In this document: in pieces, positions 7,930 to 31,026 of the stretch
Numbering within the stretch: the stretch's first letter is position 1
How the letters are laid out: the number at the start of each line of letters is the position of its first letter
Virus record (IMG/VR): IMGVR_UViG_3300025889_000592
Span: 1 to 31,042 of that record
DNA length: 31,042 bases
Direction: 5' to 3' (one strand)
Source of the DNA: a virus
Notes under the pieces: generated by a model
Databases searched by the model: none
Seen by the model: only the letters and a program-made list of their open reading frames with translations
What the model was told of the DNA's origin: nothing
Program-made: the position numbers and the translations under genes

Positions 7930-7937
7930 TATATTTG
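7930..7937 (+). promoter_or_regulatory. -7 promoter box TATATTTG with upstream TTTG, capsid operon
   Basis: TATATTTG matches TAnnTTTG, and a TTTG lies 17 nt upstream at 7909-7912, so both Bacteroidota promoter elements may be present. The ATG of the scaffold gene is 18 nt downstream, leaving an A/T-rich leader of about 12 nt. The promoter sits between the portal and scaffold genes. Confidence 0.7.
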
Positions 7938-13009: not shown

Positions 13010-16000
13010 ATGGCGAAACTAACTAGAGCCTTTAATAAAGGGGTCATGGACAAGGATCTTGACCCAAGATTGGTACAATCTGGCACGATCCGTGATGCAC
13101 TTAACGTAAACATATCTTCGTCTGAAGGATCAGAAGTAGGTGGCGTAGAGAATGAGCTGGGTAACGCCAAGAAGACGGCTATTAACTTCACAACAGACAC
13201 CGCTTATACGTTAGGTTCTATTGCTGTTGAAGAGGTTGGGTGTATCTATTGGTTCGTCAATGTGGATGACGCTGGATCTATCGAGAATTACGTATACGAA
13301 TACAACCAGGACACCAATACAACCACAATGATCCTTGGTGACACAAGGGTCGGAGCTGCTAACGTCTTGAATTTCGATCGAGAGTACCGTATCACCGGTG
13401 TGAACTACATCGATGGTATGTTGTATTGGACTGACGACAAGAATCCTCCTCGCCGTGTAAATATCCAGCGTGGTAAATCTTACGGAGTTAGTACTCCGCT
13501 AGTAGATACATTTACTGCTGATGACATCAACGTAATTGTAGCTCCTCCATTGCACGCTCCAGGAGTATCTCTTGATACTGACCCTGAACTTCCGAACAAT
13601 TTAAAAGATAAGTTCACATACTTTGCTTACAGGTACAAGTATGTTGACGGAGAATATAGCTCATTGTCTCCATTCTCAAACGGCGCATTTAACCCTAGCA
13701 CATTTAGCATCAATGGGGAGACTGGCGTAAACAATGGTATGGAGAACCTGTACAATAGGGCTACCATAACATATAGCACTGGTGGAGACAACGTGACTGA
13801 TATCCAGTTGCTGTATCGCGACTCTGAGTCTACTAATGTGTACGTTATTGAGACGATTAAGAAATCTAGCGTTAATGGAGCTAGCGGTGAGTTTGTATTC
13901 ACTAACAACAAGAAGTACTCTGTGTTGCCCAGTGACCAAGTGACTCGCCTGTTTGACAATGTTCCATTGAAAGCTCAGGCCCAGGAGATCATCGGCGGTC
14001 GTTTGACTTACGGTAACTACGTTCAGTTCTTCGATATGAAGAGAGCTAACGGAGAGGACGTTAAGATGAACTTCGAGGTGGAGCTAGATAGCCAGGTAAT
14101 CACAGCGGCTGTACCATCTGTAAAGTCTAACCGCGACTATGAGGTTGGCATTGTTTATCTGGACGAGTATGGACGTTCAACCCCAGCTCAAACCTGCGAG
14201 AACAACACTATATATGTCAAGCCATCACTGGCAGCGAAGCAGAATAAGATTCGCGTAAAGATTAATCATGAGGCTCCTGAGTTTGCCTCCTACTACAGGT
14301 TTGTAATCAAGGAGTCAAAGGGCCACTACGAAAACATCTTCATCAACTACTTTATTGAGGATGCTGGATTCAATTACTTATTGATTCAGCCGTCTGACGT
14401 AGATAAGATCAAGATTGGTAAGTATCTGTACTTTAAGACCGACGCAAACGGAGCGGTAGCTACGGACGTAAAGGTCAAGGCTACTGAGCTGAAGGTGATT
14501 GCAAAGGACGAGCTCGGCAAGGGATTGCCAGCATTCACTGGGTCCTATCTTAAGGTTACATCTGATAGCGGAATTAAGCTAAACCCAAGCATTATTACCG
14601 AGTTGAAAGCTCAGGGTGATGGTATTAATACAAACTACTCCTATAGGGGATTTGACGATAATGGAGGGATTCGCAGGAAGAAGTGTAAGGACACTACTAT
14701 CGACACCTACATATTTAAGGATGAGAACGGCCAGAATTCTTCGCAGTTTGGAACTGCGTTCGTAGAGAACCCAATCCTTTATCCTCAGGTATCTGGAAGC
14801 ACTGCTGCTGAAGGTGTAATGACTATCGCCAGGAATAATGAGGTTATAAACTCAAACCAGGGTGACGCTCGTTACAACATCGTAATCACCGACATTCTAG
14901 CATCTGGGCCTCAGATGAACTACTACATCACGGGTGACGAGGGTTACATCGAGAGCGCAGATCTAACGATCAACAACACAGCGTCTACCGAGTACGCCAT
15001 TAAAGACAAGAAAGGTAATACCGTATTCTACGTAAAGTTCTCGAACAATAACACTCTAACTACTGGAGATAGGTTTGTTGTCAACGTAAGGACAGCTAAT
15101 AACAAGCACACGTTATCCAGCGCTGGCAAGCACGACCCTGGACACTCTGTAGCGAAAGCTGCGGTAGGAGCTGTTATCGGAGAGGTCCGTGGCGGAGCGA
15201 TTGTTAAGATCAAGGCCAAGAATAGGCATGAAGACCTAGGTGGCATACCAGAACAAATCTTCACGTCCACAAGGACATACAAGAACATCGAAGAGTGGTA
15301 CTGGGAAGACAGGATATACAAGAGGTTGAAAGCTAATATAGCTCGCCTTGGCTCATCAAATATATTTGGCAATAACGCCACGACTACCATCGAGGAGCAA
15401 ATCGCTAACGGAATATGGTTCACTAGGGGTGTTGTGGATAAGGGTATCTACGTCAAGCAAATCAGGAATGCCGAGCAATTGGCGTCATACGGAGATGTTG
15501 TGATGTGTTCTAGGTCTAGCGCTGGAGCTGCCGAGGCTACAGCTGTATTCGATGACTGCGTGCCAAACTTATACACGCTCACAGTAACAGTAACTGCTGC
15601 TGCTAGCCAAGTTGTACTTGAGACTGTTCCAGAGTCAATGATCGATGGTATCTATCGTGAGATCCCTGGCACTTACGCCATTACAGACGGAGCTCACTCT
15701 GGTAGCGTGCAGGACCAGTTCTTCAATAGTGGAGCCAGTATAGCGCAACCAGCTATCAGCGATTTGCAGTTCGAGAACTGCTACGCGTTTGGGAACGGCG
15801 TGGAGTCTATTGCGATTCGCGACGACTTCAACGGAATCAAAATGACACAGAGCCCACGTGTAACTGCTGAGGTAGAAGACTACAAGCAGGAGCGTGTAGG
15901 CAACGGATTGACATATAGCGGAGTATATCGCGCAGACAGCAACGTGAATAAGTTGAACCAATTCAACCTGTCTCTCGCTAACTTTAAGTACCTAGACCAG

Positions 16001-18661
16001 AACTTCGGATCCGTTCAGAAGCTTCATGGCCGCGACACTGATCTGATTGTGTTCCAAGAGAACAAGGTATCAAAGGTGTTGTTCGGTAAGAACCTATTGA
16101 GCGACGCAGCTGGTGGAGGATCGGTTGCTTCCATCCCTCAGGTGCTAGGAACTCAGATCGCCTTTGGTGGTGAGTATGGTATCTCTAGGAACCCTGAGAG
16201 CTTCGCTACCTGGGGCAACATGTTGTACTGGGCTGACACTCGCCGCAACGCCGTGTTGCGTATGGGCATGGACGGCACTACTCCGATCTCTGCTTATGGC
16301 ATGACTGACTACTTCCGCGACTCATTCACTACTACTAAAGGCGAATTGAAACTTGGCGGGTACGATCCATATAACAACATGTACGTACTAACTTCTACAA
16401 ACGACTCTGTAGAGGCTTGCGACATTGAGATCTCCAGGAACTCGATCTTCGTCGAGAAGACCCCTATCGCAGCGATCAAGCTGTTCGCTGTGGAGGGGAA
16501 TGGATCTTGGACCGTATCTAAGGTTAACACTGGTGACGGTACAGACTGGTTGACGCTCGGAACTAGCTCAGGGACTAACACACAGGACGTTTACGGCACT
16601 TTCTCGTCAAATACATCTGGTAACCCCAGGAGCATGACGATCGAGGTTACAGGGTGCTCTGAGACACTAGTATTCTCAATAACCCAAACAGCGTACGACG
16701 AGAAGACTATTCGCGTGTATGTTGTAAACAGTGAAGAGGACTTCGGCAACGTAGCTTCTCAGCAATACTTCTACACCAACTCTCCTGGAGCTGGGGTTAA
16801 GTATGTTGACACCGCGCTGCTTGAAGGTGGCTTGGCTATGTTCACTTCAACTACCGAAAAGGTTGGATTTGACAAGATGCCAATCCCAGGCGACACCGTA
16901 ACTATGAGGGCTTACGACGAGATCGTTGGAATCAACGGAGGCACAGCCTCTCCGTTCATCCCAGGCCTGGGCAACAAGTGTTATTACTATGTCTCTAATA
17001 CTGATTATACTGCTCAAGACTACGATACGGTAATTGCGGCAGCGACTGAAGTCACAATGAGTCTAAGCGCTGGTGACTACGTTGGTTCATTCGTGTACTC
17101 CGCCCCTAGCGATGAAGAGTACTTGTACTTGGTATGGGACTACCGCAACCTAAAAGATTGCTCAGAGACCCAGTCGTACGTCGGGTCAGCTGGCTACACG
17201 CCGATGACTTTCGAGATTGGAAGTGAGACTGGTATTGTCGATGTCGACTATGTATTGACCTCTGGGGACGCCACGATCAACGTGATCTACAACGGATCGA
17301 TTGTAGCTACAACTGGATCTATAGTAGGACCATCTGTTGGGTCGTTGACATTCACGAAGCGACACACTACGCCAACTAGCGCAGTAGTGCAGATCGTAAA
17401 CGACTCCTTGCTGGCAAGCGCCTACGACGTAGATATTACAGTAAACTGCCCAACACTTCAGCCGATCGACATCGATCCGACTAATGGAACTGGAAGCAAC
17501 GTATGTTCTCAGACTCCTGGAACTACGTACTACACCGACGGAGCTACAACTGGAACAGAGGGCGCTAGGATCTACACTGATTCAAACGGAACAACTCCAT
17601 TCAATGGAGGCGACGCTTTCCACCTGATCGATACTAGCGACAATTACGTTGTTGTTAATGCCGATGGATACATTGTGTCTAAGGGATCTTGTAACTGTTC
17701 TGCTGCCTCTGAGCCAACTGGAACTGACGCAAACGTGCAGTTGTACGAAGGTGAAGAGGTTTCTTTCCGCCTGGAAGCAGACGAGACTCCTATCGCATGG
17801 GAGGTTAGCACTCTTGCTTCTCGCTACTTGTTAGAAGGTGGAGATTATGGAGCTGTCTTCAACGGACTAGACCCAGTGACTGCATTGTACAAGAAGGTTG
17901 CTGTGTTCATTGGCGACTCTAAGGAGATTACGTTTGTTGATGGTACCGTAACTAAGGTCCAGGGAGACAGCGGGTCGTTCACCAAGATTGGGCCAGATGC
18001 TCAATACTCTTTGCCTGATGGCTTGTACTTGAACGAGGCAAACGGTGTTATCTCTGGTACTCCAACCAGGATCGGATCATGGAGTGTAGACTTCGTAGCG
18101 ACAAACTGCGTAGGTACAAGTCCTGTGTTCTCAGTTCGTTTTGATGTGATAACAGATGGAGCTGTTCAGTCAGACGTGACTCCGTTCTCTATCGACACCA
18201 CGAACTCTGACGCGAGCTCAGCCTGCGGAATAACTCCAAGCTACGACATCATGTATCATGACGGATACTACACATATCCTGTAATTGGAGACAAGATTTA
18301 CAGTTCATCACTTGCTAACTCTCCATTCAATGGCAACGACTTGTGGTATCTAATGAACAATGGTCAGACTTGCCAAGTCGATAGCACTGGAGTGATTAGC
18401 GCAATCGTTGACTGCGTAGAGACAGCTTACACTGGAGACAACTTTGTGTATGAGGCCAATGCGGTAGACACATGTGCTAGCGGCATCTACTCCTACAGCC
18501 TGTACTATACAGGGACACTAGGTGTGAACCCAGGCAAGTTGTACGACGACGCAGGATTGACTACACTATCACCAGCTGGATGGTACAAGGCACAAGGATC
18601 GCCAGCTGCTGCGTACGAGTGGAATGGAAGTGAGTGGACAGGAAGTGCATACGTTTGTTAA
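13010..18661 (+). CDS. phage stabilization/tail protein with C-terminal BACON-like, He_PIG-like and repeat modules
   Basis: 1883 residues. The N-terminus (FNKGVMDKDLDPRLVQSG, DALNVNISSSEGSEVGGVEN) matches what I know as the stabilization-protein family of crAss-like and P22-type phages, a plug or tail hub that keeps DNA in the head. The following ~1100 residues are mostly beta, propeller-like, with motifs such as INYIDGMLYWTDD and NMLYWADTRRNAVLRMGMDG. Residues about 1150-1230 resemble a BACON domain (SWTVSK, WLTLG, GNPRSMTIEV, FSITQTA). Residues about 1650-1715 resemble a He_PIG Ig-like domain (LPDGLYLNEANGVISGTPT). Cys-bracketed repeats occupy about 1498-1561, 1739-1802 and 1822-1883. The tail half could bind host glycans. 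BACON domains are known from crAssphage and gut Bacteroidota proteins. It starts 1 nt after the previous stop. Confidence 0.85.
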   Translation: MAKLTRAFNKGVMDKDLDPRLVQSGTIRDALNVNISSSEGSEVGGVENELGNAKKTAINFTTDTAYTLGSIAVEEVGCIYWFVNVDDAGSIENYVYEYNQDTNTTTMILGDTRVGAANVLNFDREYRITGVNYIDGMLYWTDDKNPPRRVNIQRGKSYGVSTPLVDTFTADDINVIVAPPLHAPGVSLDTDPELPNNLKDKFTYFAYRYKYVDGEYSSLSPFSNGAFNPSTFSINGETGVNNGMENLYNRATITYSTGGDNVTDIQLLYRDSESTNVYVIETIKKSSVNGASGEFVFTNNKKYSVLPSDQVTRLFDNVPLKAQAQEIIGGRLTYGNYVQFFDMKRANGEDVKMNFEVELDSQVITAAVPSVKSNRDYEVGIVYLDEYGRSTPAQTCENNTIYVKPSLAAKQNKIRVKINHEAPEFASYYRFVIKESKGHYENIFINYFIEDAGFNYLLIQPSDVDKIKIGKYLYFKTDANGAVATDVKVKATELKVIAKDELGKGLPAFTGSYLKVTSDSGIKLNPSIITELKAQGDGINTNYSYRGFDDNGGIRRKKCKDTTIDTYIFKDENGQNSSQFGTAFVENPILYPQVSGSTAAEGVMTIARNNEVINSNQGDARYNIVITDILASGPQMNYYITGDEGYIESADLTINNTASTEYAIKDKKGNTVFYVKFSNNNTLTTGDRFVVNVRTANNKHTLSSAGKHDPGHSVAKAAVGAVIGEVRGGAIVKIKAKNRHEDLGGIPEQIFTSTRTYKNIEEWYWEDRIYKRLKANIARLGSSNIFGNNATTTIEEQIANGIWFTRGVVDKGIYVKQIRNAEQLASYGDVVMCSRSSAGAAEATAVFDDCVPNLYTLTVTVTAAASQVVLETVPESMIDGIYREIPGTYAITDGAHSGSVQDQFFNSGASIAQPAISDLQFENCYAFGNGVESIAIRDDFNGIKMTQSPRVTAEVEDYKQERVGNGLTYSGVYRADSNVNKLNQFNLSLANFKYLDQNFGSVQKLHGRDTDLIVFQENKVSKVLFGKNLLSDAAGGGSVASIPQVLGTQIAFGGEYGISRNPESFATWGNMLYWADTRRNAVLRMGMDGTTPISAYGMTDYFRDSFTTTKGELKLGGYDPYNNMYVLTSTNDSVEACDIEISRNSIFVEKTPIAAIKLFAVEGNGSWTVSKVNTGDGTDWLTLGTSSGTNTQDVYGTFSSNTSGNPRSMTIEVTGCSETLVFSITQTAYDEKTIRVYVVNSEEDFGNVASQQYFYTNSPGAGVKYVDTALLEGGLAMFTSTTEKVGFDKMPIPGDTVTMRAYDEIVGINGGTASPFIPGLGNKCYYYVSNTDYTAQDYDTVIAAATEVTMSLSAGDYVGSFVYSAPSDEEYLYLVWDYRNLKDCSETQSYVGSAGYTPMTFEIGSETGIVDVDYVLTSGDATINVIYNGSIVATTGSIVGPSVGSLTFTKRHTTPTSAVVQIVNDSLLASAYDVDITVNCPTLQPIDIDPTNGTGSNVCSQTPGTTYYTDGATTGTEGARIYTDSNGTTPFNGGDAFHLIDTSDNYVVVNADGYIVSKGSCNCSAASEPTGTDANVQLYEGEEVSFRLEADETPIAWEVSTLASRYLLEGGDYGAVFNGLDPVTALYKKVAVFIGDSKEITFVDGTVTKVQGDSGSFTKIGPDAQYSLPDGLYLNEANGVISGTPTRIGSWSVDFVATNCVGTSPVFSVRFDVITDGAVQSDVTPFSIDTTNSDASSACGITPSYDIMYHDGYYTYPVIGDKIYSSSLANSPFNGNDLWYLMNNGQTCQVDSTGVISAIVDCVETAYTGDNFVYEANAVDTCASGIYSYSLYYTGTLGVNPGKLYDDAGLTTLSPAGWYKAQGSPAAAYEWNGSEWTGSAYVC
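17480..18658 (+). repeat. three Cys-bracketed ~65-residue modules in the stabilization/tail protein
   Basis: Three related modules start and end with cysteine: residues about 1498-1561, 1739-1802 and 1822-1883. Shared features in order are a Tyr-rich strand, a 'G-x-[KR]-[IL]-Y' strand (GARIYTD, GDKIYSS, PGKLYDD), a Pro-Phe-Asn-Gly or Ser-Pro-Ala-Gly turn, an aromatic strand, and a final Gly-containing strand before the last Cys. Copies 1 and 2 are separated by the He_PIG-like domain. The third is C-terminal and more diverged. Confidence 0.7.
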
Positions 18662-18671
18662 AAATTAAAAC

Positions 18672-19412
18672 ATGAGTGATTACACTATAACATATTCAGA
18701 CGGAGCAAAGGGGTGGACATCTTTCCACTCCTGGCTTCCTGAAGAGATGACAAATCTATCTGGACGTTTTTACACGTTTAAGAATGGAGAGCTGTATCTG
18801 CATAACGCTGACACAGCAAACACAAATAACTTCTATGGCGACGACTATCCATCGACGGTTTCGGTGATCTTTAATGACGGGGCTACTGAAAACAAGATGT
18901 TTAAGACATTGTCTGTAAACTCTGATGTAAAGTGGGAGGCAGATATATTAACAGATATGGACGCAGGTCACATGGATGCTGATCACTTCAACGAATACGA
19001 GGGAGACTTCAATACATACATACGAAGAATCGCTGGAGATGTTGACACCGATCAAATGAGTGCACAGGGAGCCGGAATGAATTCGTCTTCCGTAGGAACT
19101 ACGATTACAATAGCAAACCCAGTACCAGGTACCATATCGGTTGGAGACCTTTTGTATTTCATGAATGCTTCAAAAGTCACATTCCCAATAGGAACAATTA
19201 CGTCAATATCAGGAAGTACAATTACGGTTGACGCAGCCGCTAATCTTCCATCTTCGACAAATGATTTCGTATATGCCATCAAAAACTCGCAAGCAGAGTC
19301 ATTCGGAGCGCGTGGGCAGTACATGCAGGTTGACTTGACGTGTAGCGACAGTAATAATGGGTTGGTGAGTCTTTTCTCAACCAGCACGGAGGTTTTCAAG
19401 AGTTATCAGTAA
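18672..19412 (+). CDS. virion-type protein with GWTSF / FYTFKNGELYLHN motif, 246 aa
   Basis: 246 residues. The N-terminal block (GWTSFHSWLPEEM, FYTFKNGELYLHN, NNFYGDDYPSTVSVIFND) is one I recall at the C-terminus of stabilization proteins, or as a stand-alone gene beside them, in Bacteroidota phages. The motif PSTVSVIFND continues as a strand-rich domain to about residue 100. Residues about 139-205 form a second beta domain with VGDLLYFMNASKV and IGTITSISGSTITVDAA, similar in pattern to the insertion in the capsid protein. It lies 10 nt after the 1883-residue gene and ends the operon. It is probably a tail or tail-fibre-base component; there is no enzyme signature. Confidence 0.7.
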   Translation: MSDYTITYSDGAKGWTSFHSWLPEEMTNLSGRFYTFKNGELYLHNADTANTNNFYGDDYPSTVSVIFNDGATENKMFKTLSVNSDVKWEADILTDMDAGHMDADHFNEYEGDFNTYIRRIAGDVDTDQMSAQGAGMNSSSVGTTITIANPVPGTISVGDLLYFMNASKVTFPIGTITSISGSTITVDAAANLPSSTNDFVYAIKNSQAESFGARGQYMQVDLTCSDSNNGLVSLFSTSTEVFKSYQ

Positions 19413-19431: not shown

Positions 19432-20325
19432 ATGTTTTTCGCAATCCCAGCAGCAATGACCGCAATTGGCGCAGGCGTTGACATCTATGGTTCTATCCAG
19501 GGTGCACAGCAGGCCAAGCAGGCAGAAGCTGATTTACAGAAATTTGTAGCAGAGCGAGATAGGCTACAATATACGGACAGGATGCAGGCATTGCAGGTTG
19601 GCCAACGTGGAGAGGACTTGGCCTCAGCTAACTTAGCTCAACAAGGTGGTCAGATGCTGAATACCTTGCAAGACGCAGGTTCTGCTGCTTTGATAGGCGG
19701 AGTAGGGGCTTTGGCTCAAAATATGTCTAGCCAAAACTTGCAGATTGGAGCCAATCTCAGCGAGCGTGCATACGCTAACGAGGCATTAAAAGCCCGTAAC
19801 GCTCAGATGGTGGAAAATCTAAACACCCAATACAAGATGGGCAACGTCCAGCAGGACATCATGGGAGCCCAATCAGCGTACGCTCAGGGGATGAACCAGA
19901 AGTGGGCTGGGCTTTCTAGTGCAGCAGGCGCAATGACCGGATTGGCAAATACTTACCTTGAATACTCTGACCTCTACAAAGGAGAGGGCGATGGAGCAGA
20001 AAATGGACGCAAAGAGGCAAGAGCTGAGAGAAAAGACGCAAAAACAGCAGCCGAATTAGCAGCTACAATAGGCCCCGACCTAGTTGGACCAAGGTACAAT
20101 TACGCCCCACAGCAACAAGGTGCTGGTGGATTCAATAGTACATTCGGATTCCAACCATTTGGCTTGACAGCTCAGAATTTTGGCGTTCCAAGCAGCCCTT
20201 TCACAACGCAAGCTGAAGCGTACAAGTCTAGAATGGATGCACAGGCCAATAACTTCTACAATGCACAGATGATGAATGATGTTAATCCATTCTTAGTAGA
20301 GTACGGAACAATCAAGAAACCATAA
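19432..20325 (+). CDS. internal virion protein-like, 297 aa (first of three)
   Basis: 297 residues. The N-terminus (FFAIPAAMTAIGAGVDIYG) is hydrophobic, followed by a long Ala/Gln-rich helical region (QGAQQAKQAEADLQKF, QVGQRGEDLASANLAQQGGQ, SAALIGGVGALAQN). The C-terminal third is Gly/Phe/Pro-rich and looks flexible (GGFNSTFGFQPFGLTAQNFG). This pattern, plus position before two larger helical proteins, parallels T7 gp14, the smallest of the three internal core proteins that are ejected and form a channel through the cell envelope. Sequence identity to gp14 is not claimed. It starts right after its own promoter, and the next gene follows after 2 nt. Confidence 0.7.
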   Translation: MFFAIPAAMTAIGAGVDIYGSIQGAQQAKQAEADLQKFVAERDRLQYTDRMQALQVGQRGEDLASANLAQQGGQMLNTLQDAGSAALIGGVGALAQNMSSQNLQIGANLSERAYANEALKARNAQMVENLNTQYKMGNVQQDIMGAQSAYAQGMNQKWAGLSSAAGAMTGLANTYLEYSDLYKGEGDGAENGRKEARAERKDAKTAAELAATIGPDLVGPRYNYAPQQQGAGGFNSTFGFQPFGLTAQNFGVPSSPFTTQAEAYKSRMDAQANNFYNAQMMNDVNPFLVEYGTIKKP

Positions 20326-20327
20326 CA

Positions 20328-21866
20328 ATGCCAGTATACGCAGGATATCAAGGTAACCAGATTAATAGACCGTCTTTTAGCGAAATAGCGCTAAAGGGTG
20401 CTCAACAATTGGTCGAGACCGAAAAAGAAAGGGAGACCCTAAGGAACGAACTGGCCCAGGAAAACCAGGACGCGTTTATTGAAATGCAGAACTCTGCAGC
20501 AATGCAGGGGGCCGGCAAGGAAGGTTTCTTCCAGCAAGCAGCTGACACCACTAGGGATAACCTATATAGCCTATATAAACAATTGACTTCCAATCAGATA
20601 ACTCCACAAGAGTACAGGTTGAAGAAGCAGATGATGATGAATGGCTGGGGTCAAGTCGATCAGGTGTTCAAGACATTTGAGGACAAAACTAAGGCATACC
20701 AAGATAAAGTTGCAGCTGGAACCAATACGGCAATTGATGACAAGGAGTTTGAGCTATTGTCTGATTTGTCAAAGTTGAGCAACAAGCAAATATATATCGA
20801 CCCCAAAACAAAGGCGATGATGATCGCAAATATTGGAGAAGATGGAAAGGTTGTTGGATATGTACCAGTATCTTCTGCGGCAAAGCTTACTACTACTAGT
20901 ATTCCGAAATACGACTACAATACAGGTGCCACAAAAATGGTTTCTCAGCTTCCGATGTTCGAGGGAGTTGTTGATGGTAAGTTAGTGATGTCTCCAAGGT
21001 ATGCAGATGGATACGAGGCAAATGTAAACTCAGCAGCCGATCAATTGTTGCAAAGAGAAAACCAGCGCATATCTATTGCTACTGATAATTTTGGTTGGCC
21101 AGTTGTAGATGCAAATACATACAATGGTCTTTCTGACGCTGAAAAATCAAAAACAGTTTACTTTACTGTTGACGCAGATGGAAACAGAAAGTACACTATG
21201 AGCGATGGCGCTATTGCTGCCTTGAAGCAAGAAATCGTGGCTGACATCAAGGAGCGTACTCCATACAAAGAGGATCCAAATTATGCATTGAAGCTTGAGT
21301 CTTTACAAGAAGGGAAGAGGCATAATGTAGCGATGGAAGGCGCAGCTTACGCTGCGGCTAGAAACAAAACCAAGACTAGTGGAGGTAAGCCACAACCAGT
21401 TCTTCAATCTAGGTACAAGTATTTGACCGACTTAGCAAGCAATACCAAAGACGCTAACTTAAGGGGTCGATTGATTGGAAAAGAGACTAACCTTGGGGTT
21501 ATTGAAAGCACGGGCTACAATAAGAACGGAGATTTGATATTGACATTCATAACAGAGGTAGATGGAACTCCGGTTAAAACAACAAAATCATTCACATCTA
21601 AGACGTCTAGGATGCAAATTGCAAACGACGCTCTTAATGATGGGCTTGGTCAGAATGACTGGGTATCATGGGAAGATCTAGATGTATTCGCTGGTGGTTA
21701 CTTTGACCCTAACGCTGACTACAGTTCTGATTTTGATCCACAGACTTCACTTGATCAGCTGGCGTTTAACCTTAACAACGAACAGTCAGTTGAATCTAAG
21801 AGCAGAACAACGGCAAGGCCAAGTGAATTTTCTAGGGGAATTAGCCTAGGAAATATCAATTTCTGA
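20328..21866 (+). CDS. internal virion protein-like, 512 aa (second of three)
   Basis: 512 residues, second of the presumed ejection-protein set. The N-terminal 150 residues are helical and Gln/Glu/Lys-rich (FSEIALKGAQQLVETEKERE, NELAQENQDAFIEMQNSAAMQ, YRLKKQMMMNGWGQVDQVFK). The middle contains short beta segments (AMMIANIGEDGKVVGYVPVS, TVYFTVDADGNRKYTMSDG), and the C-terminus is acidic and low in structure. It lacks membrane spans and enzyme motifs. Length and place correspond to T7 gp15 (747 aa), which forms the middle of the ejection tube, but homology cannot be shown by eye. It follows the previous gene by 2 nt and is separated from the next by a terminator-promoter junction. Confidence 0.65.
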   Translation: MPVYAGYQGNQINRPSFSEIALKGAQQLVETEKERETLRNELAQENQDAFIEMQNSAAMQGAGKEGFFQQAADTTRDNLYSLYKQLTSNQITPQEYRLKKQMMMNGWGQVDQVFKTFEDKTKAYQDKVAAGTNTAIDDKEFELLSDLSKLSNKQIYIDPKTKAMMIANIGEDGKVVGYVPVSSAAKLTTTSIPKYDYNTGATKMVSQLPMFEGVVDGKLVMSPRYADGYEANVNSAADQLLQRENQRISIATDNFGWPVVDANTYNGLSDAEKSKTVYFTVDADGNRKYTMSDGAIAALKQEIVADIKERTPYKEDPNYALKLESLQEGKRHNVAMEGAAYAAARNKTKTSGGKPQPVLQSRYKYLTDLASNTKDANLRGRLIGKETNLGVIESTGYNKNGDLILTFITEVDGTPVKTTKSFTSKTSRMQIANDALNDGLGQNDWVSWEDLDVFAGGYFDPNADYSSDFDPQTSLDQLAFNLNNEQSVESKSRTTARPSEFSRGISLGNINF

Positions 21867-21899: not shown

Positions 21900-21924
21900 A
21901 AGCCAGGATTCGTCCTGGCTTTTG
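21900..21924 (+). terminator. terminator hairpin with TTCG loop before the giant gene
   Basis: A 9-bp perfect stem (21900-21908 with 21913-21921) capped by a TTCG loop and followed by T-rich sequence. It lies in the 82-nt gap before the giant gene and runs directly into the promoter box at 21927. Confidence 0.85.
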
Positions 21925-21926
21925 TG

Positions 21927-21934
21927 TATATTTG
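21927..21934 (+). promoter_or_regulatory. -7 promoter box TATATTTG of the giant gene
   Basis: TATATTTG matches TAnnTTTG immediately after the terminator hairpin. The ATG at 21949 is 14 nt further on, so a leader of about 8-10 nt is expected. Its position shows that the in-frame ATG at 21892, upstream of the hairpin, is not the translational start. Confidence 0.75.
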
Positions 21935-21948
21935 TAGTAGTTATAACT

Positions 21949-24900
21949 ATGCCTCAACCTAAGAAGGAACTTTACAATAACCTAAAACAGCAGGGACTGT
22001 TTACGGGTTCATACGAAGCGTTCTCTAATGCTTTCGGATCTGACAAAGGAGCAGCAGCTTTACATGAGTCATTAAAGGGCCAAGGCGTTACGTCTTTAAG
22101 CCAAGAAGATTTCACGAATACATTCTTTGACGCAGAGCAGTTCGACAACTCGTACGCTCTCTCTGCTATGGAGGAGATGGCAAATCCTAGCTTGGTGGAG
22201 GAAGAGGAGCCAAAGACCTACGAGGGAGTTGGGGAAAGTGGATACGTCGGTATAGAGGCTGGCCTTGCTGGGCTGAAGTCCCTAATTAGTCAAATCGACG
22301 AAAATGACGGCAAATTAGTACTTGAGGGTGAAAGTCCAGTAGAGCCTGGAGCCAGAGCAATGGCTGGAGTGGCTCACGTTACAGGTACAGCTGCAAGATT
22401 CCTTTCAGATGTTATTGACGACTATATGCCTGGTGGCATTGATGAAGAGAAGTATAATTCCATAAACAAAATAGCGGACCCAGCAAAAAGAGAACAGGCT
22501 CTTCGTGATGCTCGCCTTGAGGGTGGGAACAATATAATGGGGGCATTGTCTCAGATGCTGTCTAATTACTCGCACGGAGCAAAAATTGCAGAAGCTATCC
22601 TAGCCCCAGAGTACAAAGATGAAAAGTCTATGACAGAGCTAGTAACTAGCGGAGATGTTAGTGGGCTTGCCAAAAAAGTATTAAACGAAGGTGCTCAGAT
22701 TTATACTGAGATGTGGCTTGGTGGACAAATGATTCCAGGAGCTGGAATTTCAGGAGGGCTCGCCAAGATGTCTGGTAAGCAAGCGTTGATAAATATCGCT
22801 GGCCGAGCTGGCGGTGGCGCAGAGGCACTTGGCATTATGACGTACCAAGACTCGTATGATGAGAACCTGAATGCTGGCATGGGTAACGGAATTCAAAACT
22901 TCTCAAACTCAGCAATCAAGGGTTTGGCTGAATATGGTGGAGAATTAGTTTCATTTAAGTTGCTTGACAAGGCAATGGGTGATGCCATGATTGGCGGTTA
23001 TGGGAAGGAATTGGCAACGAACGTAGCAAAAGGACTTGTATCATCATTCGCCCAGGAAGCTGTTGCCGAGGGGGCTACTCAGGTAGTTCAGGATTTGGCA
23101 GACATGATGCTTCAGCCGGAAGGGAAGCGCCCAAGCTTGAGCAGCATGGTAGATCATACTATTGAAGCGATGTTGCTGGGCGGATTTGTTGGTGGGGGCA
23201 TGACAGCAACCCACACTCTGCCAGCTGCGATGCAAAAGACTATTGCCGATAGGTCTATGACTAGAGACGAGAAGAATTTTGCTATATCCACTGTAAACCA
23301 AATCAACCTACTGAACTTTGAACGTCAGGCGTTATTGGACAACGGAGCTAAGCATGATGATGCGGCTGTACTTGAGTTCGATGCAAAGATCGAAAAGGCC
23401 GAGAATAGTCTGAAGGAAGTTATCTCTGTGGCGTACACAAGGATGGAGGATATGTCAGAGAAAGAACTGACGAACTTAGTTCGAGCCAACAGAGAAGTAA
23501 GGCTTGCTAACGCAAGAATAAAGGAATTAAACAGACAGGTCGACGAGTTTGAGATCACTTACGGAGAGCACGAGGAGTTGATGAAAGAGGCTATAGCTCA
23601 ACTTGACGACGCTCAACAAAATGAATCTCAAGCCGTAAATCAGGTTGTAGAAACAAGTAACGAGCGCCAGTTATATCGCAATATCAACGGATACAACAGC
23701 TTGCCTAACAAAGGTAAGAGGGTTGAGTTGATGGACGAGAAGGACTTCGCTGACTTTATTAAGCTCAGAGGCGCTATTGCTGAGATGACCGAGAACGAAG
23801 GCGTTGATGAGGGTGTAGAGGAGTTGCAGATCCAAGCTATCGAAAGAGAACAGGGCCAGCAAGATGAGGTATCTCAAGAGGATATCGACGCAATGGTCGA
23901 CGAAGAGATTACCGCTACTGACGTAGAGGAAGGCGAGACAGCAGAGGAAGCTGCAACGCGTGCAGCTGAAGAAGCTGGCATGGAGCCAACTGGAGAAGTC
24001 ACTGTAGAAGAGACCCCAGAAGGCAAGATGGTGAAGATCGGAACACCAAGGGGAGTTAAGTCATTCACTGTAAAGACCAAAGAAGACGGAACGGCTGTTA
24101 GCGTAACCAATACAGAACTCACCCCAGCCGAAGAGATCCCCGTGGGGCAGACTCAAGGTGGTGGAAAGATGGTTAAGGTAGGAACACCAAAGGGCGTCAA
24201 GTCACTCGCTACTACTACTAGCGAAGAGACTCCTGAAGACACCCAAGAAACCACTATCGATGGCGGATTATTGAGGAATAAGAGTGGCAAGGTGGTTGGT
24301 ATCAATGTCAACTTCCCGGGGGTACAGATACTCCAGAGAGAGATAAACACTCACAATGAGAAATACGGCGGAAGGCTCGGTATATACGGAGCGAAGATGG
24401 TTGACGGCAATCTGCACCTAGAAATGGCTGACAGACAAGGGAAGATCATGTTCGACTTAGTGGTAAAGCCTGACGGCGGTGTGCATTGGGTACATGTTGG
24501 TGGATCTGGCCTTTTAAACCTTGAATATCTAAATGCTCCATTCCTTGGGCTGATAGACGGTATGATGCTCGAAGAGAAGAGGAGGCCAGTACAGGCCGCT
24601 GCTTCTGGGTGGAGGAGTAGGTATACTGAGCGTTTCGGCGAGGAGAATAAGGCAAAGGCTACTAATGTCAACGACAGTAGAATGACCGAAGCTCAAAGGG
24701 AGAGAATCAGGGTTCAGAGAGGTAGCGGCTTGCACATCAAACTAGCTGACATCATTGAAAAAAGCATCAAGAATGGTGTTCGAGGTGGGTCGTTTAGCAT
24801 GCTCGGAAAAAAGGCAACCGCAAAGCCTGGGACTATGACCGTTACATTGACAAGTATAGTTGTAGGTAATGTGAATGATGGCGGAATAACCGACGAGGGA

Positions 24901-27900
24901 AGGTCCGATATGATGCACTTCCTTTCCGAGACTCTCCGAGGAGCTATATATAACAACTTGTCGTATGGCTTCTGGGTGATGGACAACGGAGACATCGCAT
25001 TCGATTTCAATATAGTCCTAGACGAGTCTCAGCGTGTAACGGCACTAGCATTTGCCACCTGGAACAACCAGGAGGCTATATACCACAAGAGGGAGGACGG
25101 AACAGAGGACTTCCCAGAGACCAATATTACCCTCAACGAAAAATTGGATGGGGCTAAGATTTCGTCAAAATCAGCAACCGACCTTGGACGAGCACAGGCT
25201 GTATTGAACTCTGGCCAAACAATTACGGATAGGCTTGTTTTTACCGACGCCATAACAAACAAGACGTGGGAATTCGGAAGGCACACAATCCATAAGGGAA
25301 GATCAGAGAGGACGCGAGCGATCCTTAAAACATTCCATACGCTATTCCCAGATGCGATAGTAAACAATTTCGACACCATTAGCGACGCACAAACTACGTA
25401 CCCAGGAATCCGCAGGGGGCACAATGGGCAGATACAGTCTAATGGGATGGTCATTAATTTGGACGGAACGAAAACCGCTATCCTTACGCCAGAGGTGATT
25501 ATTATTATTAACGAAACCTCTAACGCACGTATGGGTTCCGACTTGGTTACGGCCCACGAGGTATGGCACTCTATTCTTGGTGCTGCGTTCGCGAAGAACA
25601 ATAAACTACTGAAGGCATTTAAGACTGCAATCTCCAATGAGCTACAGGCCGCTGGCTTAACTACGATGGATCAGTACCTTACTGATTTCGCATTCCAGCC
25701 ACACTACAAGAAGACTGGAGCATCGTACGAAGAATATATTGTCGAGTTCGCTGGGTTGTTATCAAAAGGTCTCTCTGGCATGAAGAGAGAAGCACCAAAC
25801 TCATACGCAGCAGCGATGTATGAAATCATCGATAGCGTTATCGCCAAATCAGCCAACTACTTTATCGGGCAGGAGGTATTGAGTCCTAGCGAAGTAAACG
25901 AGAAGAATATCATCTCTTGGATCGCCACCGTTAACGACGCAATGATGAGGGGTGGTGACGTTAGCGTATTGACACAGTACGACCGTAGTGGTGAGATTCC
26001 ATTTGGAGACAATACTAGCATCACAGTCCAGACTAGCTCGTCCGAATCTACAACCATAACTAACGAGAACGAAACTTTCAACCAGTTCGACCCAGAGGTT
26101 GAGGTTGGCTTTGAGGATCCATTCTCAGTCGGAGCTATAGAGGTTATCCCATTCATGGCTGACCGTATGGCTACTGGCACATACACTGGATTGAATCCTG
26201 AGTCAGGAATATCAATACCAATGCAGGGAGGTGTTGGTTGTCCGAATATGAAGGGGTACTTCGGTAAGATTGGATGGTTTGTAGAAGGTGGTTCTATTGC
26301 CACTTCCTTGCAAAAGGGATTGATGCGATTGTTCAACGCTAAAAAACCAGCTTACGGAATGCCAATGTTCATGGGTAAAGAAGCTCACATGAGTAACTTA
26401 ACTTTCGCAATGTGCTTCATGGCTGAGTGTAACTATTTGATCCAGAGCGGACAAAAGACCGAGCAGGAGATTCTTGACGCAATCAACGCAGCTATAGTCG
26501 AAAAAACAATAGGAAAGAAAGACCTATCTACTAAGTGGGGCATAGATCCAAAGACTGGTAGGATCGTAGACAAGAATAAGAACACTGGCGTGAGGGTATG
26601 GGCCAAGGACATGACTCCCGCAAACTCTGTATTTGCTGATGTAGACGGACAGCAGGTTGCTGTTGCCTGGTCTGAAGTTGAGCCTAAGCAAGTACAAAGC
26701 CTTGACGAATGGTTCGATATCATGAGGACGACATTTGATGCCCGTAAGGCATTCTTTGCAGGGCTTTATGGTCCTAAGGATGGGAAGAACCCAGGAGCAG
26801 CAGCTCGCAAGTTGGGCTTGCCTGATGTTGGAAAGATGGTAGAACTTACCACAGACCCACGTTCACAGGGATTGCCAAACGGAACTGCTATCTCTGTTAT
26901 TGAGTTTTTGCCAATGAAGGATAAGAATGGTGAGTACCAGATCGTATTCACTCCAGAGGAACTTAAAGTAGATCCACACTTGAGCTACCAACTCGGTATG
27001 CGTGGTGTGTCAAAGGGATACCTGAAGGAGCCCATGCACATTAAAGGCATGGGTTACGAGTCTGAAGAGCATAAGGCATGGAGTAAGGAAAACTGGAAAG
27101 AAGGAAGATTCTCTGAAGCCCAGGCTACTTCAAACGCCACTCGCAAGGTGACGATGTCTGTTCCTACGATGATTGTAAACTCCAACGAGGTCGAGTACGA
27201 CAGCATGACTCCTGATGAGAAGGCAGATAAATTGAAGTCTAAGGTAGGTGAATTGCTTTTGACTGGCCGTGTAAGCATGGCTGGCTCTGTCGCTATTAAT
27301 AAATTCTTCGACAAAGTTAGGGGATCAGCCGCGCAGAACGCCAACACAAGAGAGGCGATCGCTGAGTTGTTGTCTGATCTGATCGGAAACGTAACCATCA
27401 ATGGGAAGGTAGACTTGACGCAGGATGACGTTATGGAGATAATGTCTCGTGCCGCTCGTATGAACCCTAATGGCCCAGCGTCTATCGCTGCGTTTGAAAA
27501 GTACTTGGTTAGGAAATTAAACCAGGCCTCTAAGCGCACAGCAAGAGAAGCAGCTGAACTTGCAAGGGAACAAGCCAAGGAGGCTAAGGAGCTTACAAAG
27601 TTCAAGGAGGAGATTATTAAAATGTTGAAGCTGAATACCAAGCGAGGAAATATCACGCTTGCTCAGTTGAACACTATACTGAAAAGATTCAACAGGGTTG
27701 ACTTTAACAGCATTGATTCTCTACAGAAGTTTTTCCAGTACGTTACAAAAGTAGCATCAAACGCAGAGTACGCCAATAACTTGGCCGAGGCTCGCACATT
27801 GCAAGCTAAGATCCGCAAGGCTAAGAAGTCGGCTCAAATACAGGCATCAACTAGAGCCATCGCTTCTGCTTTCGCTAAGTTGGACCCACGCAAGGTGACC

Positions 27901-30900
27901 GATTTGGACGAGTACTTGATGCACGCTAAGATGATTGAGGAGGCTATCAGGACTAACCGTTTTGTTGGATTCAACGAGGACGGATCAGCTGCTGTTACTA
28001 TTAAAGACGTATTGCCACACGGCCCAGTGAACGAATTCATTGAAGCCGAGACCGCAGAGCAAGAAGAATTGCGCCGCCAGGAGTTCATGACAAAGTATGG
28101 TGAGCTTATGGCTGATGGTGTAATCGATGAGACTATGACTCTGGCTGAAATGCAGCAGATCGTGACTGAGCTTGAGGCTGACGTTAAGGCTGAGGTCAAC
28201 GAAGCAAAGAGAGCTGCTGTTAAGAAATACTTGACCAAAATGTTGGAGTACCAGAAGAATCGCCTTGACGAGGCAGTGATGACTGGCATCGATCCAGAGA
28301 CTGGTCAGGCTTTCGCTATGACAGATGCTCAGGAGAAATTGTTCAACAAACTCTTCAAGACTGATGGAGCTATCAGCAACATGACCGAGAAGGAGATGTA
28401 CAAGATGCTTGAGAGCATTGACAACTTCTTCGAGAACGGAACTACAGACGGAATCCGTGCATTGGTAGCTGGAGCCGTAGGGCGAGCCAATGGAGAGGCC
28501 TTCAAGATGAAGGTAGCTGAATTGGGATTGTCTTTGTTGTCTGGTGGAAATGGAAAAGGAATGGCAGCTTTGATGGAGATGCAGTTCTCGTCACTACCCA
28601 TCGCTGGATCACGCTTCTTTAATGGAGTTAAAGAATGGAACCAAGTGCAGCGCTTGATGGGATTGGCTCAGTTCACTGAAGGAGCTGTACAAGCTCAGAT
28701 GGAAGCCAAGGCTATACTTGATGAATATATCAAGCAGTTTAATGGAGAAGGGTTCATGACAGCTGAGAACATCGTGGCACGTGGCGTGTTGGCTACACTG
28801 TTGCGTAACGTAATGTCTAGCACAGCTAATCAGAATGTAGAATTTAAAAGGAGGGTCGAGATTGCTAAACAGTCAGCTGAAGTGTCTCTGAAGGACAAGG
28901 ACCCAAGGGTAAAAAAGCAGGCCAAGTTAGCTATGGCTGCCATATCTCAATTGACTGAAGATGTTGATTCTTACGACGAATTCTTGGCGAAGATCGAAGC
29001 TTTGTCTACTGATCCCAACTTCAAGAGAAACGTAGATGCTGTTAAGTTCTGGCAGGAAAAATGGGCAGCTGCCTACGAGAAGGCGGACGCTGTTAGCCGT
29101 GAAGTTTATGACACTATCCTGGACCAGGACGTATCGTACACTCCAGACAGAATGGTTAGAACTGGTAGGATAGAGGCAACTGATATCGATGAAGGTTTCT
29201 TCTCTGGTCAATTCGTTCCCACACAGCAAGCCGGAAACTTGAAAAAGGCCACTAGGCCAAAGGTGTTGCCAAATGGTCGTGCATTAAGTTTCAACTTTGA
29301 TACTAACATGTTCACCGCTATGGAGACAATGTTAGTTGACGTATACACAGCCGAGGCAACTCGCCAGGTTAAAGAGTTCTTGAAGACCGATGGTTGGAAG
29401 AATTCATTTAACGACGACGTTGACTTGACTGTTATGGAAGACAAGATCATCAACTACATGAGAAGGGCTAGAAATATTCCTGACCACAACAGGGCGTACT
29501 CCGCTTCTGATCCAGTTGTAAAGGCAGTGAATAGAGTCGTAAAGATGGCGCATACCGCTCTATTGACGTCTGTGTTCCAGCCACTCAAGCAGGTAATACC
29601 AGTTATGGCAAACACATTTTTGAACGCAAATGGACGAGTACCAGCTGTCATGATGTCGCCTGACGCTATCGAGTGGTTGTCTAAACAACCATACGGAATC
29701 AACTTGCGAGGAGTTCAGTCTACATCCGACTTGATGACGATTAACACCGCATTGCAACAAGAAGCTGGTAATATCTTTGGAAAGGGAGTTGACAAGCTTG
29801 AGAAATACTTGGAATGGAAGATTAAGTATGTTGTAGAGAGCCCTGACGTATCGGTAGCTAAAGCATCTTGGATCAACTACTATCTTGATTTCTTGGCAAA
29901 GAAAGAGGGTGGAGCTGCTGCAAGGTACGCAACCAATACATTCACATTCGACTGGAAAAACCACAAGGTAGACAAAGAGGCCGCTGAGTACGCTCAGGCT
30001 ATGGTCGATCGCCAGCAGAACGTATCTGATACAAAGTTGGCTGGTGAGTTCTTCCAGGGGGGATCAGCATCTACGATCAGGAAGTGGGTTATGCCATTCT
30101 CTACCTTTATCATAAACCAGAAGCAACGTGTATCTGCTGACGCTAATATCTTGGCAAGTAAGACCGCTACTGGAGAAGAAAAGGTTGCTGCTACCACATC
30201 AATGATGGGTGCTCTGGCTGAGATTTTCACTTTCGTGTCTATCAAAGCATTGAGCTTAGCTTCTATGGCTTACCTAGCTGCAAGATGGGCTGGAGACGAC
30301 GAGGAGGAAGCTACTGCTGAGTTCAACAAGAAGCGTGATCAATACATGGGAGATATGTGGAAGGTTATCGGAACAATCTTTACAGAATTGCAACCAACCC
30401 CACCATTACTCGACCCAATCATTAACGAGCATTTGGTTAACAAGGTTGCCAATATGTCTGGATACGAAGGCGACCTTATGTATGTGGACAAGGATGTAAC
30501 GTCTATAGAAGTATTGTTCGGAGGTATGGCGTCTGCATATAATAGATTTGCTGAACCAATGAGAATTACTGCTGAAGCCAAAAGCGGAAAATTTGAGTAC
30601 GAAAACCCATACACCAAAAAGAAGGAATATAAGTACTATCTACCAAAAGACAGGGAGCTGATGCAAGAATTGGCCTGGTCAGCGTGGTCGTCTTGGGGGT
30701 TGACTGAAGAGCCTATACGATTGGCTCAGAAAGCTAGAAAGATCGCACAAATGAGGGCATGGACAGAAAAAGAGTACTTACAGCAAATCGGTCAAGAGTC
30801 TGGAGATTGGAGAGAATACATAGAATACAAGGCAAAGCGGAAAGAGGAAAATAAAGATAAGAGCACAGAAAGAAAAGAAGCAAAAGCCAAGAAACAGGCG

Positions 30901-30921
30901 AAGCGACAAGAAAGAATGTAA
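21949..30921 (+). CDS. giant multidomain internal/polyvalent virion protein with HEXXH peptidase motif
   Basis: 2990 residues, starting MPQPKKELYNN after promoter and terminator; an ATG at 21892 would place the hairpin inside the coding region. Order: two ~23-residue N-terminal repeats; Gly-rich amphipathic helices about 230-430; coiled coil and acidic linker about 480-690; a 14-residue motif repeated at 692-705 and 739-752; an all-beta/alpha region; a zinc-peptidase-like motif H1203-E-V-W-H1207 after a beta strand, with E1261/E1262/E1266 downstream as possible third ligand; a Gly/Cys/aromatic-rich domain about 1390-1720; long helical regions about 1860-2450; and a C-terminal part with MPFSTFIINQKQR and a hydrophobic helix, like the C-terminal 'large polyvalent protein-associated' domains. 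By position it is the T7 gp16 analogue, ejected with DNA; the peptidase may act on the envelope, capsid or host proteins. Domain names are tentative. Confidence 0.85.
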   Translation: MPQPKKELYNNLKQQGLFTGSYEAFSNAFGSDKGAAALHESLKGQGVTSLSQEDFTNTFFDAEQFDNSYALSAMEEMANPSLVEEEEPKTYEGVGESGYVGIEAGLAGLKSLISQIDENDGKLVLEGESPVEPGARAMAGVAHVTGTAARFLSDVIDDYMPGGIDEEKYNSINKIADPAKREQALRDARLEGGNNIMGALSQMLSNYSHGAKIAEAILAPEYKDEKSMTELVTSGDVSGLAKKVLNEGAQIYTEMWLGGQMIPGAGISGGLAKMSGKQALINIAGRAGGGAEALGIMTYQDSYDENLNAGMGNGIQNFSNSAIKGLAEYGGELVSFKLLDKAMGDAMIGGYGKELATNVAKGLVSSFAQEAVAEGATQVVQDLADMMLQPEGKRPSLSSMVDHTIEAMLLGGFVGGGMTATHTLPAAMQKTIADRSMTRDEKNFAISTVNQINLLNFERQALLDNGAKHDDAAVLEFDAKIEKAENSLKEVISVAYTRMEDMSEKELTNLVRANREVRLANARIKELNRQVDEFEITYGEHEELMKEAIAQLDDAQQNESQAVNQVVETSNERQLYRNINGYNSLPNKGKRVELMDEKDFADFIKLRGAIAEMTENEGVDEGVEELQIQAIEREQGQQDEVSQEDIDAMVDEEITATDVEEGETAEEAATRAAEEAGMEPTGEVTVEETPEGKMVKIGTPRGVKSFTVKTKEDGTAVSVTNTELTPAEEIPVGQTQGGGKMVKVGTPKGVKSLATTTSEETPEDTQETTIDGGLLRNKSGKVVGINVNFPGVQILQREINTHNEKYGGRLGIYGAKMVDGNLHLEMADRQGKIMFDLVVKPDGGVHWVHVGGSGLLNLEYLNAPFLGLIDGMMLEEKRRPVQAAASGWRSRYTERFGEENKAKATNVNDSRMTEAQRERIRVQRGSGLHIKLADIIEKSIKNGVRGGSFSMLGKKATAKPGTMTVTLTSIVVGNVNDGGITDEGRSDMMHFLSETLRGAIYNNLSYGFWVMDNGDIAFDFNIVLDESQRVTALAFATWNNQEAIYHKREDGTEDFPETNITLNEKLDGAKISSKSATDLGRAQAVLNSGQTITDRLVFTDAITNKTWEFGRHTIHKGRSERTRAILKTFHTLFPDAIVNNFDTISDAQTTYPGIRRGHNGQIQSNGMVINLDGTKTAILTPEVIIIINETSNARMGSDLVTAHEVWHSILGAAFAKNNKLLKAFKTAISNELQAAGLTTMDQYLTDFAFQPHYKKTGASYEEYIVEFAGLLSKGLSGMKREAPNSYAAAMYEIIDSVIAKSANYFIGQEVLSPSEVNEKNIISWIATVNDAMMRGGDVSVLTQYDRSGEIPFGDNTSITVQTSSSESTTITNENETFNQFDPEVEVGFEDPFSVGAIEVIPFMADRMATGTYTGLNPESGISIPMQGGVGCPNMKGYFGKIGWFVEGGSIATSLQKGLMRLFNAKKPAYGMPMFMGKEAHMSNLTFAMCFMAECNYLIQSGQKTEQEILDAINAAIVEKTIGKKDLSTKWGIDPKTGRIVDKNKNTGVRVWAKDMTPANSVFADVDGQQVAVAWSEVEPKQVQSLDEWFDIMRTTFDARKAFFAGLYGPKDGKNPGAAARKLGLPDVGKMVELTTDPRSQGLPNGTAISVIEFLPMKDKNGEYQIVFTPEELKVDPHLSYQLGMRGVSKGYLKEPMHIKGMGYESEEHKAWSKENWKEGRFSEAQATSNATRKVTMSVPTMIVNSNEVEYDSMTPDEKADKLKSKVGELLLTGRVSMAGSVAINKFFDKVRGSAAQNANTREAIAELLSDLIGNVTINGKVDLTQDDVMEIMSRAARMNPNGPASIAAFEKYLVRKLNQASKRTAREAAELAREQAKEAKELTKFKEEIIKMLKLNTKRGNITLAQLNTILKRFNRVDFNSIDSLQKFFQYVTKVASNAEYANNLAEARTLQAKIRKAKKSAQIQASTRAIASAFAKLDPRKVTDLDEYLMHAKMIEEAIRTNRFVGFNEDGSAAVTIKDVLPHGPVNEFIEAETAEQEELRRQEFMTKYGELMADGVIDETMTLAEMQQIVTELEADVKAEVNEAKRAAVKKYLTKMLEYQKNRLDEAVMTGIDPETGQAFAMTDAQEKLFNKLFKTDGAISNMTEKEMYKMLESIDNFFENGTTDGIRALVAGAVGRANGEAFKMKVAELGLSLLSGGNGKGMAALMEMQFSSLPIAGSRFFNGVKEWNQVQRLMGLAQFTEGAVQAQMEAKAILDEYIKQFNGEGFMTAENIVARGVLATLLRNVMSSTANQNVEFKRRVEIAKQSAEVSLKDKDPRVKKQAKLAMAAISQLTEDVDSYDEFLAKIEALSTDPNFKRNVDAVKFWQEKWAAAYEKADAVSREVYDTILDQDVSYTPDRMVRTGRIEATDIDEGFFSGQFVPTQQAGNLKKATRPKVLPNGRALSFNFDTNMFTAMETMLVDVYTAEATRQVKEFLKTDGWKNSFNDDVDLTVMEDKIINYMRRARNIPDHNRAYSASDPVVKAVNRVVKMAHTALLTSVFQPLKQVIPVMANTFLNANGRVPAVMMSPDAIEWLSKQPYGINLRGVQSTSDLMTINTALQQEAGNIFGKGVDKLEKYLEWKIKYVVESPDVSVAKASWINYYLDFLAKKEGGAAARYATNTFTFDWKNHKVDKEAAEYAQAMVDRQQNVSDTKLAGEFFQGGSASTIRKWVMPFSTFIINQKQRVSADANILASKTATGEEKVAATTSMMGALAEIFTFVSIKALSLASMAYLAARWAGDDEEEATAEFNKKRDQYMGDMWKVIGTIFTELQPTPPLLDPIINEHLVNKVANMSGYEGDLMYVDKDVTSIEVLFGGMASAYNRFAEPMRITAEAKSGKFEYENPYTKKKEYKYYLPKDRELMQELAWSAWSSWGLTEEPIRLAQKARKIAQMRAWTEKEYLQQIGQESGDWREYIEYKAKRKEENKDKSTERKEAKAKKQAKRQERM
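21970..22113 (+). repeat. tandem short helical repeat at the N-terminus of the giant protein
   Basis: Residues about 8-29 (LYNNLKQQGLFTGSYEAFSN, then AF) and about 38-60 (LHESLKGQGVTSLSQEDFTN, then TFF) share the pattern L-x-x-[NS]-L-K-x-Q-G ... S-x-E-x-F-[ST]-N-x-F. The two copies lie about 30 residues apart. Similar units occur at the start of large internal proteins of other Bacteroidota phages, in my recollection. Confidence 0.7.
24022..24204 (+). repeat. 14-residue direct repeat inside the giant protein
   Basis: GKMVKIGTPRGVKS (24022-24063) recurs as GKMVKVGTPKGVKS (24163-24204), 47 residues apart. There are only two substitutions, both conservative. Each copy follows a Pro/Glu/Gly-rich linker, so it may be a repeated binding peptide. 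Confidence 0.85.
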
Positions 30922-30925
30922 ACAA

Positions 30926-30953
30926 GAAAGGGGCCAAAAGGCCCCTATTCTTT
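30926..30953 (+). terminator. bidirectional terminator between the giant gene and the tRNA
   Basis: A 7-bp G/C stem (30929-30935 with 30940-30946) with an AAAA loop is extended by imperfect A-T pairing (AAGAA with TTCTT). T-rich sequence lies on the + side and its complement on the - side. It can stop both the rightward operon and leftward transcription from the tRNA. Confidence 0.82.
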
Positions 30954-30954
30954 G

Positions 30955-31026
30955 TAGCTCCACCAGGAATCGAACCTGGATCTGGAGTTTAGGAAACTCT
31001 TATTCTATCCGTTTAACTATGGAGCC
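30955..31026 (-). tRNA. tRNA-Arg, anticodon CCT
   Basis: Read on the - strand, 72 nt form a cloverleaf: acceptor GGCTCCA with TGGAGCT (first pair a G-T wobble) and discriminator A; D arm containing AACGGATAGAA; anticodon loop TTCCTAA with anticodon CCT (30991-30993 on the + strand), four of five stem pairs good and the first an A-C mismatch; and a perfect 5-bp T stem CCAGG/CCTGG around TTCGATT. CCA is not encoded. It reads AGG, a frequent codon in this genome but absent from the capsid gene. It is the only gene on the - strand. It resembles Bacteroidota tRNA-Arg(CCT), so it may be phage-borne or a host tRNA at an integration junction. Confidence 0.9.

Follow-up and report, generated by a model that had tools for sequence, protein, structure and literature searches.

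A giant, polyvalent-type, gp16-like protein with an exchangeable middle is a probable ejection protein of a podovirus-like phage

The closest described counterparts of the locus analyzed here are ejection proteins and polyvalent proteins of other phages. DEV gp71-72-73 are equivalent to gp16-15-14 of T7, and the DEV virion RNA polymerase reaches 3398 amino acids (PMC10925440). The virion RNA polymerase of N4 consists of an injection part, an enzyme, and an encapsidation part, and in polyvalent proteins a peptidase serves as the hub (Iyer et al. 2017, PMC5512222). The cargo proteins of crAss001 are proposed to be ejected before the DNA (PMC10172136), and the Pachyviridae and Pervagoviridae are regarded as related to Crassvirales (PMC9855967).

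We analyzed a virus contig of 31,042 bases (the window), which is a fragment, judging by its relatives. The frame at 21949-30921 on the plus strand reads through without a stop and translates into 2990 amino acids; as originally predicted, this open frame is real and intact, and its homologues and synteny mark it as the probable gene of a giant ejection protein. It fills 29% of the window (8973/31,042), and in complete relatives (60 to 73 kb) the corresponding giants make up about 7 to 19% of the genome. Starting at an upstream in-frame ATG (21892) would give 3009 amino acids. We prefer 21949 because three features favor it: an intrinsic-terminator-like hairpin in the gap that separates the giant from the gene before it (21900-21921, plus strand; a 9-pair stem, by consensus match only), a TATATTTG box resembling a Bacteroidota-type -7 promoter (21927-21934, plus strand, 14 nt before ATG 21949), and the conserved N-terminal head. 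Both DNA elements lie between the two ATGs, and the head begins at residue 7 when numbered from 21949. We take TANNTTTG to be the Bacteroidota -7 promoter element; it occurs 33 times in the window (19.3 ± 4.7 expected; none of 100 shuffles as high) and in four of seven late-module gaps, the gap before the giant included. Sites at 7930, 11383, 19420, and 21927 stand just ahead of late genes. On the 3′ side of the giant, within 30929-31026, a symmetric terminator hairpin (30929-30946) is followed by a convergent tRNA-Arg (CCT) on the minus strand.

The late genes of the window match, in the same order, those of podovirus-like phages of Flavobacteriia. The phage belongs with the Pervagoviridae/Pachyviridae/Elemovirus assemblage; it is probably podovirus-like with flavobacteria as its host, which would place the host in Bacteroidota. 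The genes run from a GroES-like protein through the terminase (69% to that of ctfjg026, MW202828), the portal, virion structural proteins, a 1883-amino-acid structural protein, and proteins of 246, 297, and 512 amino acids to the giant, with which the structural module ends. This order (packaging, portal, capsid, tail, small, medium, giant) is kept in phi38:1, phi18:3, elemoE, Panino, and ctfjg026. The 1883-amino-acid protein (13010-18661) matches an Ig-like family (He_PIG), PHROG 14478, and, weakly, BACON; it is a candidate host-contact protein. The 246-amino-acid protein (18672-19412, plus strand) carries the crassvirus muzzle C-terminal domain (PF25729; E = 2.9e-11, above the Pfam cut-off); here the domain forms a stand-alone protein, and crAss001 has one large muzzle protein. 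The Ala/Gly-rich 297-amino-acid protein (19432-20325, plus strand) aligns with the corresponding genes in ctfjg026 and elemoE and has a weak PHROG virion structural match; by position it is the counterpart of T7 gp14 and DEV gp73, and it may have a gp14 role. By synteny only, the 512-amino-acid protein (20328-21866, plus strand), which has no sequence match in the PDB, is the counterpart of T7 gp15, DEV gp72, and crAss001 gp45.

The whole giant had no tblastn match among phages, and scans of viral contigs with either the whole giant or its domain D (described below) taken singly gave no match. Relatives were instead reached through an alignment of the neighboring muzzle-domain gene, which led to 80 viral contigs, and iterated profiles were then run on about 120 loci; because these loci were picked by synteny or by D itself, the counts given here describe them and not phages at large. 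Every annotated relative that we read has a giant of 1691 to 3859 amino acids in its structural module, and the size of the window giant is therefore normal in its group: it is larger than T7 gp16, as had been pointed out, but unremarkably so. The giant is last in the module in all relatives read except Gundel_1, which has a 7.4-kb structural gene upstream of the terminase. The giant of phi18:3 (gp123), homologous to that of phi38:1 (E = 2e-19), is annotated as detected by MS/MS proteomics, and this annotation is the only tie, via homology and synteny, between the window giant and virion detection. Public records call two giants (L002, 741-12320; L006, 18229-23718) "reticulocyte binding/rhoptry protein" and "tRNA methyltransferase," which look like misannotations.

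Conserved N-terminal (residues 7-64 and 343-418) and C-terminal (residues 1850-2824) parts flank a replaceable middle. The repeats noted earlier are present: N1 (residues 7-64; 21967-22140, plus strand) consists of two copies of about 28 residues, and the linker (24022-24204, plus strand) holds a 14-residue pair, GKMVKIGTPRGVKS at residue 692 and GKMVKVGTPKGVKS at residue 739; at the DNA level, there is no tandem array of note. The N1 head is common to 32 frames (iterated profile; window E = 2e-9 to 3e-9). N2, a Gly-rich amphipathic segment (residues 343-418; 22975-23202, plus strand), is shared, by profile matches, with the giants of phi38:1, Panino, and elemoE. The C-terminal module (27496-30420, plus strand), a coiled coil plus a long helical region, has ten close homologues (phmmer E to 2.5e-128; 11-sequence alignment; profiles). 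Its predicted fold is nearly all helix, in keeping with the coiled coils originally described, at low confidence (pLDDT 58, pTM 0.42). A fold search with this model gave no match to T7, N4, or crAss ejection proteins, from which we conclude nothing because of that low confidence; its sequence had no match to these proteins either. Of the hydrophobic C-terminal region also proposed, one marginal stretch is left, around residues 2752-2777 (Kyte-Doolittle up to 1.63), and no clear transmembrane helix was found in the giant on this scale. The giant itself has no match to a PHROG family and, whole or in pieces, none to a Pfam family; weak Pfam matches (Cnd1, OAM_dimer, Lipoprotein_18, and others) were below cut-off and scattered, and we took them as chance.

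Two pairs of relatives show that the middle is exchangeable. The giants of L016 and L018 are 94.7% identical over residues 1-959 and 81.4% identical over the aligned C-terminal part, and the flanks of the L010 and L013 giants are 91.5% and 94.2% identical, yet the middles are unrelated within both pairs. In L016 and L013 the middle consists of the peptidase and D; in L018 it is a ddrB-ParB domain (PF18763, 1.8e-12), and the L010 middle aligns with that of L018 throughout. Neither of these ddrB-ParB middles has an HExxH motif. These patterns are direct sequence evidence that the middle has been exchanged between close carriers. In a further giant (L057), LPD23 (PF18838, residues 1394-1438) lies between two HExxH motifs in the slot that D occupies in other giants; we rejected it as an equivalent of D, with which it does not align. 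Each pair amounts to an experiment done by nature, in which the middle differs between almost identical carriers, so that one can test directly whether the ends serve as a delivery vehicle of general use and the middle as its freight.

In the window, the middle begins with a predicted zincin-type peptidase (25399-25968, plus strand), recognized by HEVWH at residues 1203-1207 (25555-25569) and a third ligand, Glu1262. The original prediction had noted the peptidase motif, which is indeed present; it lies before the domain at residues 1390-1720 and not inside it. A profile seeded from nine relatives, with the window left out and scored independently of D, matched the window at 0.0012 in round one and 1e-8 in round two, both before inclusion; no reversed sequence did better than 0.19. 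Of the 174 frames of at least 1000 amino acids from related loci, 69 contain HExxH, where 1.0 is expected and 200 shuffles gave a maximum of 5; the motif is absent from the giants of phi38:1, phi18:3, and Panino. In an alignment of 21 proteins the only invariant residues are His1203, Glu1204, His1207, and Glu1262, the H, E, H, E zinc-ligand pattern described for polyvalent zincins (PMC5512222). None of the Pfam peptidase families is clearly matched by the region.

Behind the peptidase lies D (residues 1397-1738; 26137-27162, plus strand), first traced by eye to a stretch of the L014, L029, and L050 giants. A scan with an alignment of these three reached 33 contigs. The iterated profile scored the window at 8.7e-4 while the window was still left out and at 1.8e-20 once it had been added; the profile also reached ctfjg026, L012/L013, L016/L017, L019, L042, L043, and L122. 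D is above threshold in 45 frames, the window included, with slightly fewer distinct genes because a few contigs overlap. Asp1405 and Asn1483 are invariant, even at 16 to 27% identity to the window, and Gly1427-Gly1428 and Trp1443 are nearly so. The richness in Cys, Gly, and aromatic residues ascribed to the domain holds for Cys (residues 1431, 1489, and 1494 are the only three in the protein) but not for Gly or aromatics, which are not exceptional. Of the 40 carriers that no contig end truncates, 39 have D and the peptidase side by side. D precedes the peptidase in most carriers, with a fixed 8-residue gap in most of those, and follows it, with gaps of 33 to 62 residues, in the window, L016, L017, L019, L042, and L043. 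The sole carrier group without a peptidase is that of L122, with a protein of about 790 amino acids (L122, 394-2745; L125, 1237-3636; L128, 5491-7860) that looks like part of another phage lineage; the near copy in L125 is immediately followed by a virion structural gene (phrog_2941) and a tail fiber gene.

The AlphaFold2 model of D (pLDDT 76, pTM 0.75) has no Foldseek match in the PDB (best E = 1.1). It matches 17 predicted viral structures at 1.1e-5 or better, all of them phage proteins with no function assigned for the D part; the structural giant of elemoC is among them, and the elemovirus match combines fold comparison with a weak profile alignment. No Pfam family matches D, none of 29 members matches an LPD model, and one of the 29 has a PHROG "endolysin" match (3.8e-5), on which, as it is confined to that member, we did not build. 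No D turned up in 84,980 prokaryote genomes scanned with patterns built from close relatives, a scan that distant copies may escape. The domain outlined by the original prediction is real, unnamed by Pfam, and unmatched in the PDB; a match to a known structural-only family was looked for and did not occur. Recurrence in some 44 other phage frames, together with the 17 structures, rules out that D is unique to this phage, and no family, fold, or context evidence speaks for a toxin. D is a widespread, unnamed domain of phage giants whose core is predicted with confidence and for which no related structure has been solved; for these reasons, and because it is tied to a peptidase, it is a clear target for structural and functional work in cultured flavobacterial phages.

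We consider it likely that the giant is a polyvalent ejection protein akin to gp16, made by a podovirus-like phage, with an exchangeable middle as cargo and, here, a zincin-type peptidase beside D. Synteny, homologues, the peptidase profile, and the natural middle swaps lend good support to the core of the original proposal, a multipart ejection protein of giant, polyvalent type. Packaging, injection, self-cleavage, and an effector role of D are steps that we infer: the conserved ends would serve to package the protein in the head and to bring it through the tail into the cell; the giant would be packed in the head with its two upstream partners, exit before the DNA in a partly unfolded state, and refold in the envelope or cytoplasm; the peptidase would cut the middle free, releasing D or other parts; and freed D would act as an early effector. 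A tentative and, on balance, unlikely proposal is that D represents a new enzyme or effector fold, specific to phages, which enters the host as infection begins and is released by the zinc peptidase coupled to it. It is possible, if doubtful, that the peptidase is instead an assembly maturation enzyme and D its prodomain, docking part, or substrate, with no injected effector; the near-obligatory adjacency of the two and the fixed 8-residue gap fit this explanation, as does the processing of P1 DdrB before packaging (PMC5512222). Such a partnership sits less well with the reversed order and longer gaps in the window and the relatives arranged like it, or with D standing without a peptidase in what is apparently another lineage. 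Moreover, L018 and L010 carry ddrB-ParB without HExxH in place of this middle, and the peptidase-D pair is therefore dispensable for assembly of such giants.

The C-terminal module is long, helical, and conserved, and T7-type ejection proteins are largely helical, which could suggest a purely structural or channel-forming giant in which the peptidase and D would be no more than inactive relics or spacers. We judge this improbable, since invariance of H, E, H, and E across 21 divergent proteins, and of Asp and Asn in D, is unlike that of relics. More improbable still is a role without injection, as a tail fiber, tape measure, or host-surface protein. The length of the giant, its coiled coil, and the place of its gene after the tail genes would suit such a role, but the relatives are podovirus-like (PMC9855967), a type of phage in which a tape measure would not be expected; muzzle-like and ejection-type genes lie ahead of the giant; its C-terminal module is helical and not beta-rich; and close carriers bear ddrB-ParB or LPD23, known from polyvalent proteins.

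As a probable ejection protein, the window giant has its nearest counterparts in the Pervagoviridae/Pachyviridae/Elemovirus giants (phi38:1 gp101, phi18:3 gp123, and elemoE gp18) and ctfjg026 UOF82488, which occupy the same position in the structural module. It shares a C2 part, the peptidase, and N2 with elemoE and D and the peptidase with ctfjg026; these giants differ in length (1691 to 3859 amino acids) and have no overall tblastn match to it. As in crAss001 (muzzle gp44, cargo gp45-gp50), a muzzle-domain gene is followed by cargo-type genes, although the searches run found no homology to the crAss001 cargo proteins. Like the polyvalent proteins (Iyer et al. 2017, PMC5512222), the giant is one large late-gene chain with a zincin-type peptidase signature, encoded after terminase, portal, virion structural, and muzzle-domain genes; the likeness extends through relatives with ddrB-ParB or, in one case, LPD23 in the middle. 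We call it polyvalent-type by architecture because no catalogued Pfam polyvalent domain matches it or its pieces. Neither a transglycosylase domain, a trait of T7 gp16 (Pfam), nor a T7-like RNA polymerase domain, a trait of N4 (Pfam and PHROG), was matched in the giant. As with T7 gp16 and DEV gp71, its gene is the largest of three and comes third, behind one small and one medium ejection-type gene (19432-20325, 20328-21866, and 21949-30921), an order kept in relatives, and the N-terminal part, middle enzyme, and helical C-terminal part of the protein parallel the anatomy of the N4 virion RNA polymerase. Because its anatomy parallels N4 and its gene order parallels T7 and DEV, the giant is most likely packed in the head of the virion and forced into the host before the DNA.
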